From NCBI GenBank assembly GCA_000403255.2, contig KE159571.1:276250-340249 (forward strand): a stretch of DNA of 64,000 nt, written 5' to 3'. The stretch is from Lachnospiraceae bacterium 3-1 (GTDB taxonomy: Bacteria; Bacillota; Clostridia; Lachnospirales; Lachnospiraceae). Shown here one piece after another: positions 5,625 to 51,408 of the stretch; positions within the stretch are counted from its first letter, which is position 1; the number at the start of each line of letters is the position of its first letter. The notes under the pieces were generated by a model. That model ran no database searches. It saw only the letters and a list, made by a program, of their open reading frames with translations, and was not told where the DNA came from. The position numbers and the translations under genes were made by a program.

Positions 5625-7523
5625 TTATACCTTTACTTTCTTTACCTTACTGTAACTTCCATATATCTTTCTTCCAGTAGAATCTATCTGGTATCCCCGT
5701 ACACGCACATAATAAGTTTTATTTTTTCTCAAACCCTTTACCGTCTTTGAGAGGGATGAAGTATAAACTTTTTTTGTGGAAGATTTGAATCTTCTATTTG
5801 TAGAATAACAAATCTCATATCCTTTTACTTTGCTGATTTTACTATACTGTACCTTAAATTTACCTTTTCCTTGCTTTTTAAGAGAGATAATTGTTTGTTT
5901 TTTTGGTTTTACAACTTTTTCCCATTGGGCGTAAACCGTCTTGGAACCGGAACCTGATACTCTTGTGTAAGAAACTATTTTTTTGCCTCCAACCTTTTGT
6001 ATATACCATCCCCGGAACAAATAGCCTTTTCTTTGTGCTGTAGGCAATTTTCCCAATTGCTGATTATCCTTTCTTACAATTGATTTCTCTCCTATCACTG
6101 TACCGCCATTCCCATCAAAGAATACAGTAAACGTATCCTGTGCCGAAGTAGGTGTATCCTGTGGTTTTGCTGGTGTGGCTGGATTTGTTGGTGTGGCTGG
6201 ATTTGTTGGTGTGGCTGGATTTGTTGGTTTTATCGGGTTCGTTGTATTTTCTGGTTTCGTTGGTATGGTTGGATTCGTCGTATTTTCCGGATTCTTTGGC
6301 GGTTCCGGTTTTTTTTGATTTTCCATCACAATTTGAACAGGCACGATACTGTTTGAAACATTTCCTGCTGGATCATAAGCATAAATATGTGTAAGATATT
6401 CGCCCATCTCGTAATTATGGTCTGAAATATTTACTCGGTATGTATAAATATTTCCGTTTGCCGTTCCACTGCACTGACTATTGGTAGCCCAATCGGGAAC
6501 AATATCATCTTGTTCATTGTATAAAGTCCAGGTTGGAAACTGTACCCGGTCTACCCGAAAATTATCTGTTACAGTACAATGTACCGTATAGCCTGTTTCT
6601 GACAAATCAGTAACAGATATCTCTGTGATAACCGGAGCTTGATCATCCTTGATTGTAAAACTACCTGTCCCACTTTCATAAGTGGTTCCATTGGCGCTTG
6701 CCCACATACGAAAAGTATATGTTTCTCCCTGCCGCAGACCTGTAGGAAGAGCTTCTCCAACAATATTCAACTGCTGATTCACCGTAGAAGTACTCAAACC
6801 ACAAGCTTCACTATGATTTACTGTCAGAATTCCAGCAGAATCCCAAACCTTCACTCCCACATTTGACACAGTAAGACCATTTGGATTGCTGATAGTTCCT
6901 TTTAACAGCGCATTCCAAGTATCTGTCCATTCCACATTGATTGAAGAATAAGATAAACTTCCTGAAGGAGTTCCTCCCCCGGCCCCTAAATATACATATC
7001 CCAAAAATGCTCCATTCCTAGGCCCTTCCAATGCAGATTTTGTTATCGTATGAATGGCACAATATCCCGTATTAGCGTTTGAATTAGATGCTTCATATCC
7101 ACCTTCACTAATGATTACGGTATTTCCATTTACACTTTCTACTACTGAAACATGATTTTCGTAACAAGCCAATGCCTTTGCCTGTAAACTTGCTCCCCTG
7201 GAAAATCCAAAATTTTTATAAGCAGAATTATACCAGCTTTTTCCAGAATATATGGTACAATTTGCTCCTGTCAATTGATTTACTCTTGCTGATGCAAACC
7301 ATGCACATCCTGAACGTCCATAAGCATATTGACCCCAAGTTGGAATATTAGCATAATTTGTATAAGGAGCAGCATTGATATCAATATAGATTCCGCCTGT
7401 TCCATTTCCTCCAATTCCACTGGGCGCCCCAGCATTTACAACGCTTGGTGTAAGATAAAATATAAATAGTGCGAAAAAAAATACAAGCTTCTTTTTCATT
7501 TTCATTGAAAACAATACTTCCAA
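5625..7523 (-). CDS. Secreted CHAP-like amidase/peptidase with proline linker and InlB-type repeat
   Basis: The 632-residue secreted protein has a signal peptide at about 10-31, then a CHAP-like domain with candidate catalytic Cys73 (SGCAWFAS) and His124 (ENHVSVVE). A beta-sandwich region (about 190-400) and a Pro/Thr/Asn-rich linker (about 405-460) follow. Next come an InlB B-type repeat (about 465-535, FRGWYI and VYAQW) and a Lys-rich fibronectin-III-like end. CHAP enzymes cut peptidoglycan peptides or amide bonds, so a wall-remodelling role is inferred. The start is TTG: AAAGGAGG lies 8 bases before it and no ATG sits better. It is divergent from the XRE gene. Confidence 0.8.
   Translation of the reverse strand: MEVLFSMKMKKKLVFFFALFIFYLTPSVVNAGAPSGIGGNGTGGIYIDINAAPYTNYANIPTWGQYAYGRSGCAWFASARVNQLTGANCTIYSGKSWYNSAYKNFGFSRGASLQAKALACYENHVSVVESVNGNTVIISEGGYEASNSNANTGYCAIHTITKSALEGPRNGAFLGYVYLGAGGGTPSGSLSYSSINVEWTDTWNALLKGTISNPNGLTVSNVGVKVWDSAGILTVNHSEACGLSTSTVNQQLNIVGEALPTGLRQGETYTFRMWASANGTTYESGTGSFTIKDDQAPVITEISVTDLSETGYTVHCTVTDNFRVDRVQFPTWTLYNEQDDIVPDWATNSQCSGTANGNIYTYRVNISDHNYEMGEYLTHIYAYDPAGNVSNSIVPVQIVMENQKKPEPPKNPENTTNPTIPTKPENTTNPIKPTNPATPTNPATPTNPATPAKPQDTPTSAQDTFTVFFDGNGGTVIGEKSIVRKDNQQLGKLPTAQRKGYLFRGWYIQKVGGKKIVSYTRVSGSGSKTVYAQWEKVVKPKKQTIISLKKQGKGKFKVQYSKISKVKGYEICYSTNRRFKSSTKKVYTSSLSKTVKGLRKNKTYYVRVRGYQIDSTGRKIYGSYSKVKKVKV
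6172..6225. repeat. Three perfect 18-bp tandem repeats in the linker of the CHAP protein
   Basis: The unit GGTGTGGCTGGATTTGTT (plus strand) occurs three times without change at 6172, 6190 and 6208. On the coding strand each unit encodes a six-residue PTNPAT-type motif. The 18-bp period keeps frame, so copy changes would only lengthen or shorten the linker. Confidence 0.95.
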
Positions 7524-45186: not shown

Positions 45187-45771
45187 TTATGAATAAGACT
45201 TAATGATTTCTTCAGCAATTGTTTGTTTTGTAATGCAGCGGTCCATTGCCTGTTTTTCAATATAACGGTGGGCATCGGGTTCGTTCATTTTTAATTCGCT
45301 GATTAAAATCCATTTCGCTTTGTTAACAAGACGGATCTCTGCCATTTTTTCTTTGATAGACAGGGATTTTTTTTCAAATTGTCTCAGCCGCTCCCTGGCG
45401 CTTTCCATCCAGCTAAGAGCATGTATCATGGTTGGCTTTGATGTTGGTTTTGACAGCGTGAACACACCGTATTCAGCAACCTTGTCGTGAATTCCGGCAT
45501 GTATATCACTTTTTACCAAAAGCAGAACAGCAGATTGTTTACTGGTACAGGTGTCAATTGCAAAGCGAGTACCCATATCGTCAGGCAAAGGCGCGTTGAT
45601 AATGACAAAATCAAACGTTTTTTCAGCGAGTATCCGTTCGGCGGCGTTGACACTGGCAACAGTATGGATCGGGGAATATCTTGTTTCGGGGAGCAGGTCG
45701 GCAAAGGCAGAGGTGAATTTATCTGTTGCAGACACAATGAGTATACTGTAAACCCGTTCTCTTAAACTCAT
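45187..45771 (-). CDS. ANTAR-domain RNA-binding regulator, NitR-like
   Basis: The 194-residue protein has an N-terminal receiver-like domain (about 8-125) and a C-terminal ANTAR domain (about 135-190: AKWILISELKMNEPDAHRYIEKQAMD). The receiver lacks the usual LLDIMMP phosphorylation motif (it reads VIINAPLPDD), so it may not be phosphorylated. ANTAR proteins bind paired hairpins in nascent RNA and block terminators. It follows glnA by 31 bases, as nitR does in solvent-producing clostridia. Predicted targets are the glnA and glnN leaders. Confidence 0.92.
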   Translation of the reverse strand: MSLRERVYSILIVSATDKFTSAFADLLPETRYSPIHTVASVNAAERILAEKTFDFVIINAPLPDDMGTRFAIDTCTSKQSAVLLLVKSDIHAGIHDKVAEYGVFTLSKPTSKPTMIHALSWMESARERLRQFEKKSLSIKEKMAEIRLVNKAKWILISELKMNEPDAHRYIEKQAMDRCITKQTIAEEIIKSYS

Positions 45772-45802: not shown

Positions 45803-47014
45803 TTATTTATTACAGTAGATGTCTAATATAGCGTCTGGTATGTTTTTTTTGATAAAATTGCTGTTTGCAGCTACTGCACAGGCGGATTTAAGATTGCTAG
45901 GCAGTTGTTTAAAATTGGCAAGGGTATTCGCATTTGCTTTATACAGATTGATATCCGCAGGGGTCGGCAGCTCTAGTTTATTCTCAATTCCATCAAGAAT
46001 GGCATAAATTATCAGGGCAAATATCAGATAAGTATTAGCAGCCGGATCAGGAGAACGAAGTTCAACACGACGGTATTCGCCGACAGCGGCTGGGATTCTT
46101 AAAAGCTGTGAACGGTTCTCGCTGGACCAGGAAATATATTTTGGAGCTTTGTTGCTGCCAAAACGATGATAGGAGCTTTCCGTTGAATTTAAAAATACCG
46201 TCATATCAGCAACTTTATCCAAAATCCCTGCAATCAGGTATTTCATATTGTCTGTATCATAAGATGATTTGACTGATATATTGATATGGAAGCCGTTCCC
46301 TGGTTTGTTTTCCAATGGTTTCGGACTGAAATCAGCGTAAAGGCCATTCCGCTGGGCGATTGTTTTTACAACCGTCTGAAACGTCATGGCGTTGTCTGCG
46401 GCGGTCAGAGGATCGGAATAGCGAAGGTCAATTTCGTTTTGTCCCGGTCCTTCTTCATGATGTGAGCGTTCCGGTTGTATTCCCATCTGTTCTAGCGTCA
46501 GGCATACTTCGCGGCGGATATTTTCACCTTTGTCTTCCGGAGCGATATCCATATAAGTTGCGTTATCATAAGGTTTTTTGGTTGGATTTCCATTGTCATC
46601 CAACATGAACAGGTAAAACTCCTGCTCTGCGCCAAAGAAAAACTGATGTCCGGAAAGTTTTGCTTTTTGAATCGCGTTTTTTAAAATAGAACGGGTATCA
46701 CATTCAAATATTTTTCCATTGGGATAAGTAATGTGACAGAACATTCTTACTACACTTCCATGCTCCGGTCTCCATGGCAGAGGCGTCAATGTGTCTGCTT
46801 CAGGATACAGGAACAGATCAGAATGGTTTTCATCACCAAAACCAGCGATGGCGGATGCGTCAATGGCGATGCCATATTCAAAAGCACGGGAAAGCTCCTG
46901 TGGCATAATGGATATGTTTTTCTGCTTGCCGAATACATCACAAAAGGCGAGGCGGATGAATTTGACGTCTTCTTCACGCACATATTGGATGACCTCTTCT
47001 TTTGAATATTTCAT
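45803..47014 (-). CDS. glnA: Glutamine synthetase, class I-like short form
   Basis: The 403-residue protein makes glutamine from glutamate, ammonia and ATP. Visible signatures are VRFIRLAFCDVFG-like start, FFFGAEQEFYLF, the PGNGFHINIS ATP-binding loop and RRVELRSPDPAANTYL. At 403 residues it is shorter than the usual 440-470 class I enzymes. The ribosome site is weak (GTAGG). Transcription begins at a consensus promoter at 47247-47275 and passes a leader of about 225 bases with two terminator-like hairpins. Confidence 0.92.
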   Translation of the reverse strand: MKYSKEEVIQYVREEDVKFIRLAFCDVFGKQKNISIMPQELSRAFEYGIAIDASAIAGFGDENHSDLFLYPEADTLTPLPWRPEHGSVVRMFCHITYPNGKIFECDTRSILKNAIQKAKLSGHQFFFGAEQEFYLFMLDDNGNPTKKPYDNATYMDIAPEDKGENIRREVCLTLEQMGIQPERSHHEEGPGQNEIDLRYSDPLTAADNAMTFQTVVKTIAQRNGLYADFSPKPLENKPGNGFHINISVKSSYDTDNMKYLIAGILDKVADMTVFLNSTESSYHRFGSNKAPKYISWSSENRSQLLRIPAAVGEYRRVELRSPDPAANTYLIFALIIYAILDGIENKLELPTPADINLYKANANTLANFKQLPSNLKSACAVAANSNFIKKNIPDAILDIYCNK

Positions 47015-47075
47015 AAGCCTACCTACTTTCTTTTTTCTTTTAATTTGTTACATATCTTTCAGAATAAACAAGAAA

Positions 47076-47096
47076 GAATCCTGCTTTGCAGGATTC
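47076..47096 (-). terminator. Second hairpin in the glnA leader
   Basis: GAATCCTGC-AAA-GCAGGATTC is a 9-bp perfect stem, followed on the minus strand by TTTCTTGTTT. It lies among other GC-rich palindromes (47097-47150, for example GTCGC-TTT-GCGAC). Confidence 0.65.
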
Positions 47097-47170
47097 TCCG
47101 CCTGCGGCGGGTCGCTTTGCGACAGATTTCATACCCGTCGCAGTGCGATAAAAGCTTTCCTATAGAATAA

Positions 47171-47234
47171 AAAAAGCAAAATTATCCGCTTTCAGGGCAG
47201 GTGATTTCTGCTCTGAAAATGAACGCCTTTGCTC
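47171..47234 (-). promoter_or_regulatory. Candidate ANTAR-responsive leader of glnA
   Basis: On the minus strand GCAAAGGCGTTC is followed by a hairpin (TTTCAGAGCAG/CTGCCCTGAAA, loop of 7). The 3' arm of this hairpin overlaps a terminator stem, AAAGC/GCTTT with a TTTTTTT tract. Overlap of an upstream hairpin and a terminator is the layout of ANTAR antitermination. The GCAAAGGCG motif also occurs in the glnN leader. Confidence 0.6.
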
Positions 47235-47246
47235 ACACTCTTTATA

Positions 47247-47275
47247 TTTATACAGCAGATGAAGCGCTTTGTCAA
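47247..47275 (-). promoter_or_regulatory. glnA promoter
   Basis: Minus strand TTGACA (47270-47275) and TATAAA (47247-47252) with a 17-bp spacer. It is back to back with the glnN promoter, the two -35 boxes being 36 bp apart. Confidence 0.85.
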
Positions 47276-47311: not shown

Positions 47312-47340
47312 TTGACAAATGATTTTTAAGGGTGTATTAT
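47312..47340 (+). promoter_or_regulatory. glnN promoter
   Basis: TTGACA (47312-47317) and TATTAT (47335-47340) with a 17-bp spacer. The predicted start of transcription is near 47347, leaving about 170 bases of leader. Confidence 0.85.
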
Positions 47341-47349
47341 CCAACACGT

Positions 47350-47490
47350 AAAGGCAAGGGCGTCTTTGAGAGAAAGTTCTCAGAGACGCTTTTTACTTTT
47401 GTAAATGAAAATACATAAAATTTGGGATAAAAGGCAAGGGAGTCTTTTGCGGCGCAGGGAAACGCGCCATGAAAGCCATCCTTGTCTTTT
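47350..47490 (+). promoter_or_regulatory. Candidate ANTAR-responsive leader of glnN with two repeated modules
   Basis: The motif AAGGCAAGGG(C/A)GTCTTT occurs twice, at 47351 and 47431. The first runs into a 12-bp stem (47360-47371/47378-47389) with a 6-base loop GAAAGT and a TTTTT tract. The second opens an 11-bp stem (47429-47439/47480-47490) enclosing a GGCGC/GCGCC hairpin. Two modules, a 6-base loop and a terminator fit control by an ANTAR protein, although the loop does not follow the A1/G4 consensus of known sites. Confidence 0.6.
47360..47394 (+). terminator. Terminator in the glnN leader
   Basis: GCGTCTTTGAGA/TCTCAGAGACGC, 12 bp with one wobble pair, is followed by five T. It lies about 15 bases after the predicted transcription start, so it acts on the leader itself. 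Confidence 0.85.
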
Positions 47491-47517
47491 CATTTTCAAA
47501 TTGGAAGGAGTGAGATT

Positions 47518-49614
47518 ATGAAGAATGTATCTGATTTTTTTGGATGTAAAGTATTTGATGACAGAGTGATGAAAGCAAATTTATCGGCGAAGGTTTATCA
47601 GTCTTTGAGGAAAACGATTGATGAAGGCGCAAAGCTGGATATTGGCGTAGCAAATGCAGTAGCGGCAGCTATGAAAGACTGGGCGGTAGATCATGGCGCT
47701 ACCCACTATACGCATTGGTTTCAGCCTCTTACCGGAGTTACAGCAGAAAAGCACGACAGTTTTATTTCTCCATCTCCCGACGGCGGTGTGATTATGGAGT
47801 TTTCCGGAAAGGAGCTGATCAAAGGAGAACCGGACGCCTCATCCTTTCCCTCTGGCGGACTCCGTGCTACTTTTGAAGCGCGAGGATACACAGCATGGGA
47901 TCCTACGTCTTATGCATTCATAAAGGGCAATACATTGTGTATTCCTACTGCATTCTGCTCTTATGGCGGAGAGGCGCTGGATAAAAAAACGCCGCTGCTC
48001 CGTTCTATGGAAGCATTAAATAAGCAGGCAATCCGTATTCTTCATCTGTTTGGAAACAACGACGTAAAATGTGTCCGCACATCTGTAGGACCGGAACAGG
48101 AATATTTCCTTATTACAAAAGAAATGTATGAACAGAGGAGGGATCTTCGATTTACAGGACGTACGCTTTTTGGCGCAAAGCCGCCAAAAGGACAGGAGAT
48201 GGACGATCATTATTTTGGAGTGATCAAGCCGAGGGTTGCAGCCTATATGGAAGAATTGAATGAGGAACTCTGGAAGCTGGGTATTCTGGCAAAGACAGAG
48301 CATAACGAAGTTGCCCCGGCACAACATGAACTTGCCCCTGTCTATACGACAACAAACATTGCAACAGACCATAACCAACTGACCATGGAAATTATGCAGA
48401 AGGTTGCTGCAAAGCATGGGCTTGTGTGCCTGCTTCATGAAAAACCATTTGCCGGAGTAAATGGAAGCGGAAAGCATAACAACTGGTCCTTAGCTACGGA
48501 TGAAGGCGTGAATCTGTTGTCGCCGGGCGAAACACCGTACGAAAACGCACAGTTTTTATTATTTCTTTGTGCAGTTATTAAGGCGGTGGACGATTATCAG
48601 GATCTGCTTCGCCTTTCTGTCGCAACGGCAGGCAATGATCACAGACTTGGGGCAAACGAAGCGCCTCCGGCAGTCATTTCTATTTTCCTTGGAGAAGAAT
48701 TGAATGCAGTACTGGAAGCGATTGAAATCGGCACTCCATATGAGGGCACTGAAAAAACACAGATGAGGCTGGGCGTGAACGTACTTCCAAAGTTTAACCG
48801 CGATACCACAGACCGCAACCGTACATCGCCGTTCGCGTTTACTGGAAATAAATTTGAATTCCGTATGCTTGGTTCCTCCAACAGCATTGCCTGCGCAAAT
48901 ATGATGCTGAACAGCGCGGTGGCAGAAAGTTTGAAAATCTATGCGGACAGACTGGAAAAAGCGGAGAATTTTGAAGACGTACTGCATGAAATGATCCGCA
49001 AGACCATCAAAGACCATAAACGTGTTATTTTCAACGGGAATGGTTATGACGACACATGGATTAAGGAAGCTGTAGAAAAGAGAGGGCTTCTTAATTATCG
49101 TACAACACCGGATTGTATGCCGCATTTGCTGGATGAAAAAAATGTACGGATGCTGACGTCTCACAAAGTATTTTCAGAAGCAGAGCTGAAGTCCAGATGT
49201 GAAATTATGCTGGAAAATTATTGTAAGACAGTTCTGATTGAAGCAAATACCATGGTTGATATGGCAAAGACAGAGATTGCTTCTGCAGTAAGCGCATATG
49301 TATTGGAACTTGCAAATACAGCGGTGGCAAAAAAGGCGGTCGATGATTCAATTTCACGCAGTTATGAAACGGAGCTTATGAAAAAACTTGTAAGACTGGA
49401 AGATCAGATTGCAGTTAAGACAGATGAATTAGAAGAAGCTGTGATGAAACTCCAGGATGCAGAAGATGTGGAAGCAGAATCTTATATGATTCGGGATGCT
49501 GTTTTAGGAAAAATGGGAGAATTAAGAGTTGCCTGTGATGAGGCAGAAACGATAACGGCAAAGAAATACTGGCCATTTCCAACTTATGGCGATTTACTGT
49601 TTGGCGTAAAATAA
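47518..49614 (+). CDS. glnN: Glutamine synthetase class III
   Basis: The protein of 698 residues matches GSIII, the dodecameric type common in Bacteroides and Clostridia. Visible motifs include [33 protein letters not shown] and [16 protein letters not shown]. The start is ATG 47518 (MKNVSDFFG) after TTGGAAGGAG. It faces glnA and heads a run with amt and a purF-like gene. It has visibly more G/C-ending codons than the parAB region. Confidence 0.97.
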
Positions 49615-49650: not shown

Positions 49651-51408
49651 ATGGATGAAGCTATGAAAGCGCTTGTGCAGGAAACAGTATCCGGCGAAGT
49701 GTTCGGAGTCTGGTTTTTAATTGGCGCCGCATTGGTGTTCTGGATGCAGGCAGGTTTTGCAATGGTAGAGGCGGGTTTTACCAGGGCAAAAAATACAGGA
49801 AATATCATTATGAAGAATTTGATGGATTTTTGTATTGGAACCGTAGTATTTATACTGATTGGTTTTGGTTTACTGATGGGAGAAGACCTGTCTGGATTTA
49901 TCGGGAGACCGGGATTTGATTTGTTTACTGCATATGCGGAGTTTGATTTTTCAAGTTTTGTATTTAACCTTGTATTCTGTGCTACAACGGCAACCATCGT
50001 ATCCGGTGCAATGGCGGAACGTACAAAATTTCTTTCCTATTGTATTTATTCCGGTATAATTTCTGCCTTGATTTATCCGATTGAAGCACACTGGATATGG
50101 GGAGGAGGATGGCTTTCCCAGCTTGGATTCCATGATTTTGCCGGTTCCTGTGCGATCCATATGGTAGGCGGTATTTCTGCATTAATTGGTGCAAAAATTC
50201 TTGGTCCCCGTATCGGAAAGTTTACCAGAGATACGAGTGGAAAAGTTGTGAAAGTAAATGCATTTCCGGGACATAGCATTGCGTTCGGAGCGCTTGGGGT
50301 ATTTATTCTTTGGCTCGGATGGTATGGATTTAATGGTGCGGCTGCAACTTCTATTGCACAGCTTGGTTCTATTTTCCTGACAACAACAGTCGCACCTGCG
50401 GCTGCAACTGTTGTATGTATGCTCTTTACATGGATCAAATATGGAAAGCCAGATGTTTCCATGTGCCTAAACGCATCGTTGGCAGGGCTTGTTGCAATCA
50501 CGGCGCCTTGTGATGTGACAGATGCATTCGGTGCAATTGCGATTGGAGCAGTTGCGGGCCTTTTGGTTGTGTTTGGCGTGTGGCTTCTTGACCATATACT
50601 TCGCATTGATGATCCGGTCGGGGCAGTTGCCGTGCATTGCATGAATGGGATCTGGGGTACACTTGCAGTTGGATTATTTGCTACAGATAAGGCTCCCGGG
50701 TACAGTATTGCAAATGCTTCGGGAGAAACTTTAACTGGTCTGCTTTATGGCGGCGGGTTTGGCTTGTTGAAACTTCAGTTTATCGGCTTTGCCAGTGTAG
50801 CAGTATGGACAGCAGTTACTATAACTATTACATTCCTTGTAATCAAAGCAATTGCAGGCCTTCGTGTAGACAGGGAAGAAGAAATGGCTGGCCTTGATGC
50901 GGCAGAACATGGCCTTCCTTCTGCGTATGCAGGTTTTGCAATGCTTCCGGAGTATATTGAAGAAGGAAATGATTTTGTGGCGGTATCCGGTGATACCCCG
51001 GTTGCAGAAGCGATTCCGGTTAAGAAAGTTCCTGCATTTGAAGAAGGAACTCCAAAGCTTACAAAGATTGAGATTGTCTGCAGGGAATCCAAATTCGAAG
51101 CTTTAAAAAATGCAATGATGAAGCTGGGAATTACTGGTATGACAGTATCCCATGTCCTGGGATGCGGGATTCAGAAAGGCAAACCGGAGTACTATCGCGG
51201 CGTACAGGTAGAGGCGAATCTTCTTCCCAAAGTACAGGTGAATCTTGTAGTCAGCGCAGTTCCGATCCGTAAAGTGATTGAAACAGCGAAGAAAGTACTT
51301 TACACAGGGCATATTGGAGATGGAAAAATTTTTGTCTATGATGTAGAAAATGTAGTGAAAGTAAGAACCGGAGAAGAAGGATTTGACGCACTTCAGGATG
51401 TGGAATAA
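49651..51408 (+). CDS. amt: Ammonium transporter Amt fused to a PII domain
   Basis: The protein of 585 residues has an 11-helix Amt part (about 1-425) with the twin channel histidines in CAIHMVGG and AVHCMNGIWG. A linker follows, and then a full PII signalling domain (about 469-585: KLTKIEIVCRESKFEAL, YRGVQVEANLLPKVQVNLVVS, GHIGDGKIFVYDV). PII normally is a separate GlnK trimer that plugs Amt. The start is ATG 49651 (MDEAMKAL) with GGAGG upstream. Confidence 0.95.
   Translation: MDEAMKALVQETVSGEVFGVWFLIGAALVFWMQAGFAMVEAGFTRAKNTGNIIMKNLMDFCIGTVVFILIGFGLLMGEDLSGFIGRPGFDLFTAYAEFDFSSFVFNLVFCATTATIVSGAMAERTKFLSYCIYSGIISALIYPIEAHWIWGGGWLSQLGFHDFAGSCAIHMVGGISALIGAKILGPRIGKFTRDTSGKVVKVNAFPGHSIAFGALGVFILWLGWYGFNGAAATSIAQLGSIFLTTTVAPAAATVVCMLFTWIKYGKPDVSMCLNASLAGLVAITAPCDVTDAFGAIAIGAVAGLLVVFGVWLLDHILRIDDPVGAVAVHCMNGIWGTLAVGLFATDKAPGYSIANASGETLTGLLYGGGFGLLKLQFIGFASVAVWTAVTITITFLVIKAIAGLRVDREEEMAGLDAAEHGLPSAYAGFAMLPEYIEEGNDFVAVSGDTPVAEAIPVKKVPAFEEGTPKLTKIEIVCRESKFEALKNAMMKLGITGMTVSHVLGCGIQKGKPEYYRGVQVEANLLPKVQVNLVVSAVPIRKVIETAKKVLYTGHIGDGKIFVYDVENVVKVRTGEEGFDALQDVE

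Follow-up and report, generated by a model that had tools for sequence, protein, structure and literature searches.

Probable single-hexaloop ANTAR-type antitermination switches in the divergent glnN and glnA leaders of a Lachnospiraceae bacterium

Background

Antitermination by the ANTAR protein EutV needs both hexaloops of its RNA target (PMC3369931, PMC8934654), and in the eut leaders of E. faecalis the linkers between the two hairpins are 5-12 nt long (PMC3369931). The search for such targets published in 2012 accepted stems of 3 bp (PMC3369931), and that year's predictions already included leaders adjoining glutamine synthetase genes (PMC3369936); ANTAR control of glutamine synthetase is therefore not new. 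Ammonia regulation has been proposed for two clostridial glutamine synthetase systems, i.e., glnA-nitR of Clostridium acetobutylicum and the GS-GOGAT cluster of C. thermocellum with its ANTAR gene (PMC4676874). AmiR of Pseudomonas has a receiver-like domain without the phosphorylation residues and is gated by AmiC (PMC8934654). With regard to single hexaloops, Walshe et al. (2022) expected them where no transcribing polymerase limits the time, and called for further bioinformatics and experiments (PMC8934654).

Here we describe the divergent glnN and glnA leaders of Lachnospiraceae bacterium 3-1, which lie in a 64,000-nt stretch of DNA (the window, to which all coordinates refer unless another contig is named). 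Judging from their sequence, the glnN leader very likely carries two ANTAR-type antitermination switches in a row and the glnA leader one, each with a single hexaloop.

Results

The locus comprises two divergent gene pairs, i.e., glnA and an ANTAR regulator gene on the minus strand and glnN and a gene in which an ammonium transporter is joined to a P-II domain on the plus strand (Table 1). The transporter gene begins 36 nt 3' of glnN, and the two presumably share one transcript. The start of glnN was placed at the ATG (47518) that follows GGAAGGAG, while the list of open reading frames begins this gene at an upstream TTG (47482). Among the matches listed, glnN shares 96% identity with a metagenome-assembled genome titled Clostridiaceae bacterium and 93% with Mediterraneibacter agrestimuris. 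A domain search of this genome (assembly 96.75% complete) gave one ANTAR match, i.e., the gene beside glnA.

Table 1. Genes and predicted leader elements at the glnA-glnN locus (positions in the window)
Feature	Position	Strand	Basis
ANTAR regulator gene, 194 aa, directly 3' of glnA	45187-45771	-	Pfam ANTAR, 53.8 bits (cut-off 27.3)
glnA, glutamine synthetase	45803-47014	-	Pfam Gln-synt_C, 287 bits; Gln-synt_N, 79 bits
glnA leader terminator over the hexaloop hairpin, U-tract 47169-47175	47169-47234	-	47170-47235: -24.5 kcal/mol, z -4.7
glnA-side hexaloop hairpin GTGAGC-[AAAGGC]-GTTCAT, A1/G4	47219-47236	-	sequence; -4.7 kcal/mol
Predicted glnA promoter, TTGACA (47270-47275), 17 nt, TATAAA (47247-47252)	47247-47275	-	sequence
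Predicted glnN promoter, TTGACA (47312-47317), 17 nt, TATTAT (47335-47340)	47312-47340	+	sequence
Module 1 hexaloop hairpin AAAGGC-[AAGGGC]-GTCTTT, A1/G4	47350-47367	+	sequence; R1 match, 60.2 bits, E 1.9e-8
Module 1 terminator, perfect 12-bp stem 47360-47389 around GAAAGT, U-tract 47390-47394	47360-47394	+	z -5.6
Module 2 hexaloop hairpin AAAGGC-[AAGGGA]-GTCTTT, A1/G4	47430-47447	+	sequence; R1 match, 37.4 bits, E 8.6e-4
Module 2 terminator-like hairpin, stem 47431-47488, short U-tract UUUU 47487-47490	47431-47490	+	-28.3 kcal/mol, z -4.1
glnN, type III glutamine synthetase	47518-49614	+	Pfam GSIII_N, 270 bits
Ammonium transporter fused to P-II domain	49651-51408	+	Pfam Ammonium_transp, 398 bits; P-II, 83 bits

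The initial annotation of this DNA had reported the motif AAAGGCAAGGG(C/A)GTCTTT twice in the glnN leader and GCAAAGGCG once on the glnA side, each at the base of a hairpin. Both motifs were recovered, the former as exact copies at 47350-47367 and 47430-47447 (plus strand; still the only two sites in the window with up to 3 mismatches) and the latter at 47224-47232 (minus strand). At this tolerance, shuffled sequences held a mean of 0.13 copies of the repeated motif (n = 100), with two or more copies in 1 shuffle. The repeat is thus confirmed, and either copy forms a hexaloop hairpin of its own that obeys the A1/G4 rule. The stems of the two glnN hexaloops have six pairs, one of them G-U.

The predicted glnN transcription start, at about 47346-47348, lies upstream of both hairpins, and the 6-bp hairpin of module 1 begins 9 nt past the -10 box (10 nt by our script, which counts a 5-bp stem). 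Upstream of module 2 the promoter-like score is only 9 of 12. On the glnA side, the promoter lies 10 nt ahead of the hairpin; it was missed by the promoter script, which demands T as the last base of the -10 box.

Relatives were searched with R1, a model derived from 58 elements of glnN leaders, which was run on 299 genomes of the family and 341 of the class. Both glnN modules of the window belonged to its training set, and below an E-value of 0.9 they were its only matches in this genome; R1 gave no match to the glnA element of the window. A search of the genome for GGCAARGGMGTC found 5 sites, and the 3 located outside the glnN leader were rejected as further elements because they are not leader-like by eye. 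We also used a promoter-plus-loop pattern (TTGAC, GC[AANGGC]G and a T-run, with no further stem demanded). It found 6 sites in this genome versus 9 in the backward control and is thus uninformative here, apart from glnN and perhaps one locus (L254, contig C12, position 127921). At that locus, a GAAC-[AAAGGC]-GTTC hairpin follows a promoter-like stretch and overlaps a terminator-like hairpin. It precedes a circularly permuted ATP-grasp gene and is likely a further element, so that this genome would hold four, i.e., the two glnN modules, the glnA element and, probably, L254.

The initial annotation had also placed a terminator shortly past the predicted glnN start, and such a terminator is found there, about 13 nt after the start, with its stem (47360-47389) around GAAAGT followed by UUUUU; its minimum-energy fold narrows the tip to a 4-nt loop. 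By contrast, the claim that the loop departs from the A1/G4 rule fails, since GAAAGT is the tip of this terminator and the recognition loops keep A1 and G4. The apical loops of terminators in relatives range from 3 to 17 nt, and A1 and G4 occur together in 2 of 17 six-base tips. As these tips are conserved neither in size nor in letters, GAAAGT was rejected as a recognition loop. Further hairpins, with GCAAAGC tips, were seen by eye between the glnA terminator and glnA (47072-47140); one of them, at about 47072-47095, has a T-rich stretch behind it (minus strand) and is possibly a second attenuator.

Folding indicated that hexaloop hairpin and terminator are mutually exclusive in both glnN modules. 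Module 1 had an energy of -26.0 kcal/mol with the terminator as compared to -10.6 kcal/mol with the hexaloop enforced, and module 2 had -30.5 kcal/mol when free to fold as compared to -18.3 kcal/mol with the hexaloop enforced. An overlapping terminator was present in 80 of 83 glnN-leader elements and used the 3' arm of the hairpin in 78. Counted to the U-tract, the RNA of 52 elements has a predicted median length of 52 nt. Moreover, among 58 aligned elements both the hairpin and the terminator showed two-sided, pairing-preserving changes, where the percentage of pairing in the hairpin is inflated as the sites had been chosen for at least 5 bp.

Overlap with the 3' arm and two-sided changes in both structures together are the mark of a switch, and they argue against a role in which the hexaloops bind ANTAR protein but act as sponges, or on stability or translation, next to terminators that are constitutive attenuators. 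We regard such a role as decidedly unlikely, even though ANTAR protein could be titrated by short hexaloop-bearing leaders that are predicted to terminate at about 50 nt, a sponge role has been proposed for the EutX RNA, and single hexaloops are discussed in such roles by Walshe et al. (PMC8934654).

Conservation of the hairpin was assessed in 110 glnN leaders (this genome included), i.e., the best 80 of 589 contig loci and the best 30 from the family search, of which 108 were used after L088 and L102 (< 250 nt) had been dropped. A C-[AANGNN]-G hairpin with at least 5 bp occurred in 67 of the 108 leaders, as compared to a mean of 0.83 and a maximum of 4 in 100 dinucleotide shuffles; the motif thus recurs in orthologous leaders. 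Its frequency by glnN identity was 11/11 above 85%, 16/17 at 80-85%, 24/30 at 75-80%, 9/24 at 70-75% and 7/26 below 70%, and 34 of the 41 leaders in which the strict hairpin is absent have a glnN identity below 75%. When sites were selected by loop letters only, stems of at least 5 bp were found at 83 of 123 sites versus 3 of 96 with six control loops. Likewise, at least 4 bp of stem, including AGGAGC/GCTCCG and AGAAGC/GCTTCG, were present at 86 of 90 sites picked by the promoter-plus-loop pattern, which gave 80 sites versus 18 in the control in 11 relatives that had been picked for their R1 matches.

Two stem types, AAAGGC/GTCTTT and ATGAGC/GTTCAT, have the loop and the closing pair in common. 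The second was found at 26 sites, i.e., the glnA-side hairpin of the window and 25 hairpins in relatives. "glnA type" was discarded as a label for it, as glnA is the next gene in only 3 of the 26 (this genome, L024 and L089), where several loci end before the following gene can be told. At other sites of this type the next frame starts like a class-II glutamine amidotransferase in 17 of 20 (six confirmed by Pfam), with one pyrG and one gltB among the remainder; these amidotransferase genes are divergent from glnN.

The position of promoters bears on whether one hexaloop or two are transcribed. A strong promoter, defined as at least 10 of 12 consensus bases and reached by 2% of shuffled upstream stretches, was present upstream of 53 of 83 glnN-leader elements, and in 44 of these 53 the hairpin base lies 9-12 nt past the -10 box. 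Strict elements before other genes had a strong promoter in 24 of 31 cases, all 24 with a spacing of 8-12 nt; pooled with the glnN set, 68 of 77 strong promoters show this spacing, as do 19 of 24 for the ATGAGC type. Transcription usually starts about 7 nt past the -10 box. With such a start the hairpin would begin at approximately +3 to +7, and an upstream partner hairpin would lie outside the transcript. Two modules, 40-161 nt apart, occur in 16 glnN leaders, and in all 16 a strong promoter is lacking at the second module.

We also counted second A1/G4 hairpins (at least 3 bp) against the mean for other letter pairs at the same loop positions. For the 83 glnN elements, such hairpins were found downstream in 8 (mean 11.7) and upstream in 2 (mean 4.9). 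The corresponding numbers were 4 (mean 4.5) and 4 (mean 2.5, maximum 6) for 31 elements not linked to glnN, and 6 (mean 3.5, maximum 8) and 1 (mean 1.7) for 26 elements of the ATGAGC type. Summed over the three sets (n = 140), there was no enrichment either downstream (18 versus 19.7) or upstream (7 versus 9.1).

An ordinary dual-hexaloop ANTAR target, whose second hairpin has degenerated or lies concealed in the tip of the terminator, is in our judgment unlikely. Module 1 could fold a 3-bp second hairpin, GAG-[AAAGTT]-CTC, two bases past the first; this would satisfy the loosest published dual definition, as 3-bp stems were allowed in 2012 (PMC3369931), but it is not kept in the near relatives L008 and L009. 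The terminator tip of one relative, L029, reads GAG-[AACGGA]-CTC, and the 6 of 26 downstream loops in the ATGAGC type lie above their mean, if below their maximum. Against these stand the variable terminator tips described above and the largest set, in which second hairpins are not enriched (8 of 83). Furthermore, a finder of dual hexaloops, run on eut regions, detected none in three genomes of the family and one clear dual element (L249) in six such regions of class genomes; hence the finder can see dual elements, though as a control this is thin. The L249 element, at about position 7104, combines dual A1/G4 hexaloops with a terminator and is located approx. 1.7 kb upstream of a match to EutB.

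Elements outside glnN leaders were studied by reading 40 of the stronger R1 matches of the family search, taken from 40 regions apparently unlinked to glnN (of these, L196 was dropped at a contig end, and L194 holds two elements); these matches do not include the glnN matches of R1, which are not independent since the model was trained on glnN leaders. The next open frames were named with Pfam and with NCBIfam, the latter on their first 330 residues or fewer, so that several NCBIfam scores fall below the cut-offs for whole proteins. In 34 of the 40 cases, the element precedes genes for ammonium, glutamine, glutamate, amino-acid or glutamine-using synthesis functions, i.e., amt (7), gltB (5), pyrG (4), gdhA (3), asnB (3), glnA (2), and one each of P-II, guaA, purF, purC, glmS, dapL, dapF, ureA, an aminotransferase and an amino-acid ABC binding protein. 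The rest were two soxA-like genes, one PPDK_N, one weak match to GTP-diphosphokinase and two without assignment. By a 4-bp rule the A1/G4 hexaloop is present in 31 of the 40 and missing in 9, and a few false members may thus be listed. Two of the 9, L202 (before asnB) and L217 (before amt), have G at loop position 1.

The ANTAR domain was searched in the same family and class genomes; searches over more than 40 genomes ran with stricter filters, by which weak matches are lost. In the class sample, an ANTAR gene was found in 42 of 43 genomes bearing the element versus 172 of 341 overall (Fisher's test, 7e-13, with ancestry ignored). In the family sample, the element was present in 82 of 265 ANTAR-positive versus 2 of 34 ANTAR-negative genomes at an E-value of 1e-3, and in 56 of 265 versus 0 of 34 at 1e-4, where 14 of the ANTAR-negative genomes were deduced from their absence in the result tables. 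The two exceptions in the family (G186 and G202) have weaker matches. The exception in the class (G340; 97% complete, 6% contaminated) has a clear element (L248) with no ANTAR gene detected, which may reflect an assembly gap or another binder. The association is partly a matter of shared ancestry. Among 30 ANTAR loci of the family, 29 have a glnA match.

This distribution also bears on whether the leaders are protein-free metabolite riboswitches for glutamine or ammonium. Two exclusive hairpins ahead of glutamine synthetase genes would suit such a riboswitch, but conservation covers an 18-nt hairpin, which we judge to be small for an aptamer, plus a terminator, no Rfam family matches the element at the curated score (only sub-threshold matches occur in the region), and its presence tracks ANTAR genes. 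A riboswitch is thus highly improbable, and so the suggestion in the initial annotation of a separate ammonium- or glutamine-sensing RNA is not upheld. Its other suggestion, a variant class of ANTAR target, gains support, though on other grounds: A1 and G4 are kept, and the departure consists in one hexaloop instead of two.

The ANTAR regulator aligns with Rv1626 and EutV over most of its length, and its Response_reg match (Pfam, 27.9 bits) falls below the cut-off of 30.2. In an AlphaFold2 model (pLDDT 90) its six best PDB matches are the ANTAR proteins Rv1626, EutV and AmiR (1qo0 for AmiR), with a TM-score of 0.73 to RNA-bound EutV (6ww6). The phospho-acceptor position of the receiver-like domain is Asn59 in the window protein; across this protein and those of 30 family loci, the column holds Asp in 2 of 31 and is gapped in 4 of 31. 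At the position of EutV Tyr164, which stacks on G4, 13 of 14 closer proteins have His, and the equivalent of Met172, another residue by which EutV contacts RNA, is invariant in all 14. Many family ANTAR proteins beside glnA (L117-L146) carry a GIVxCGYRxxDM-like stretch at the phospho-site, unlike the type in the window. The sequences indicate at least two regulator subtypes.

Discussion

In each element, the loop and 3' arm of the hexaloop hairpin double as part of the 5' arm of an intrinsic terminator. Under the single-hexaloop antitermination reading, the hairpin, being weak (approx. -4 kcal/mol), would yield to the terminator as long as active ANTAR protein is absent, and transcription would end in the release of a leader of about 50 nt. 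Under a shortage of nitrogen or glutamine, ANTAR protein from the glnA operon would bind the emerging hexaloop and stabilize its hairpin, allowing the polymerase to read through, so that glnA-ANTAR and glnN-amt would be raised together. Default termination, binding of the nascent hexaloop and read-through are supported by the predicted anatomy and by co-occurrence with ANTAR genes, while we infer the direction (induction at low glutamine or ammonium) and the signal partner. The missing phospho-acceptor Asp points to gating by a partner, as of AmiR by AmiC, rather than by a kinase; in the most speculative part of the proposal, the regulator is probably gated in this way, with GlnA and P-II as candidates.

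We consider a more general hypothesis to be evenly balanced, namely that these elements form a distinct class of ANTAR control. In this class, one hexaloop at the start of the transcript would suffice for antitermination, with no need of the "recruitment" hairpin demanded by current models, while the RNA has grown to only about 50 nt. The class would serve a broad glutamine regulon of Clostridia (glnA, glnN, amt, glutamate synthase, gdhA and amidotransferases such as pyrG, guaA, purF, asnB and glmS), and its regulator, which could not be phosphorylated, would be gated by GlnA or by some other sensor of glutamine. As EutV needs both hexaloops, sufficiency of one would run against precedent. What may be new is that only one hexaloop is present, close to the 5' end, and that the regulon is so wide; neither a single-hexaloop ANTAR class in Clostridia nor a regulon of this width was found described in the literature searched (mostly open articles). 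With a natural, conserved set in which one hexaloop is fused to a terminator after a predicted start, the single-hexaloop question becomes directly testable. The same holds for a regulon, wider than classic nitrogen assimilation, by which Lachnospiraceae and related Clostridia may set the synthesis and use of glutamine.

Glutamine riboswitches, i.e., the glnA RNA and the Downstream-peptide RNA, resemble the present elements in that leaders control glutamine genes, and differ in that no Rfam match was found here. The clostridial glnA-nitR system, in which we take nitR to lie beside glnA in C. acetobutylicum, and the ANTAR gene in the GS-GOGAT cluster of C. thermocellum are similar in tying an antiterminator or ANTAR gene to glutamine synthetase; a single-hexaloop RNA element is, however, not described for them in the excerpts of PMC4676874. 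AmiR is likewise an ANTAR protein with a non-phosphorylatable receiver-like domain, and its structure is among the fold matches, whereas none of the scanned neighbors (glnA, glnN, amt-PII and purF) is AmiC-like and glnA adjoins the regulator. With the dual-hexaloop ANTAR RNAs (eutP/EutV, nasF and amiE; PMC3369931, PMC8934654), the elements share the A1/G4 hexaloop, the overlap with a terminator, an ANTAR gene in the genome and nitrogen genes, but they have one hexaloop, a few bases past the predicted start. Their tandem modules are 40-161 nt apart, whereas for EutV a linker of 14 nt already cut induction drastically (PMC3369931). Since the dual-hexaloop class is defined by two hairpins with a short linker, we file the elements described here as a variant of this class rather than as members of it.
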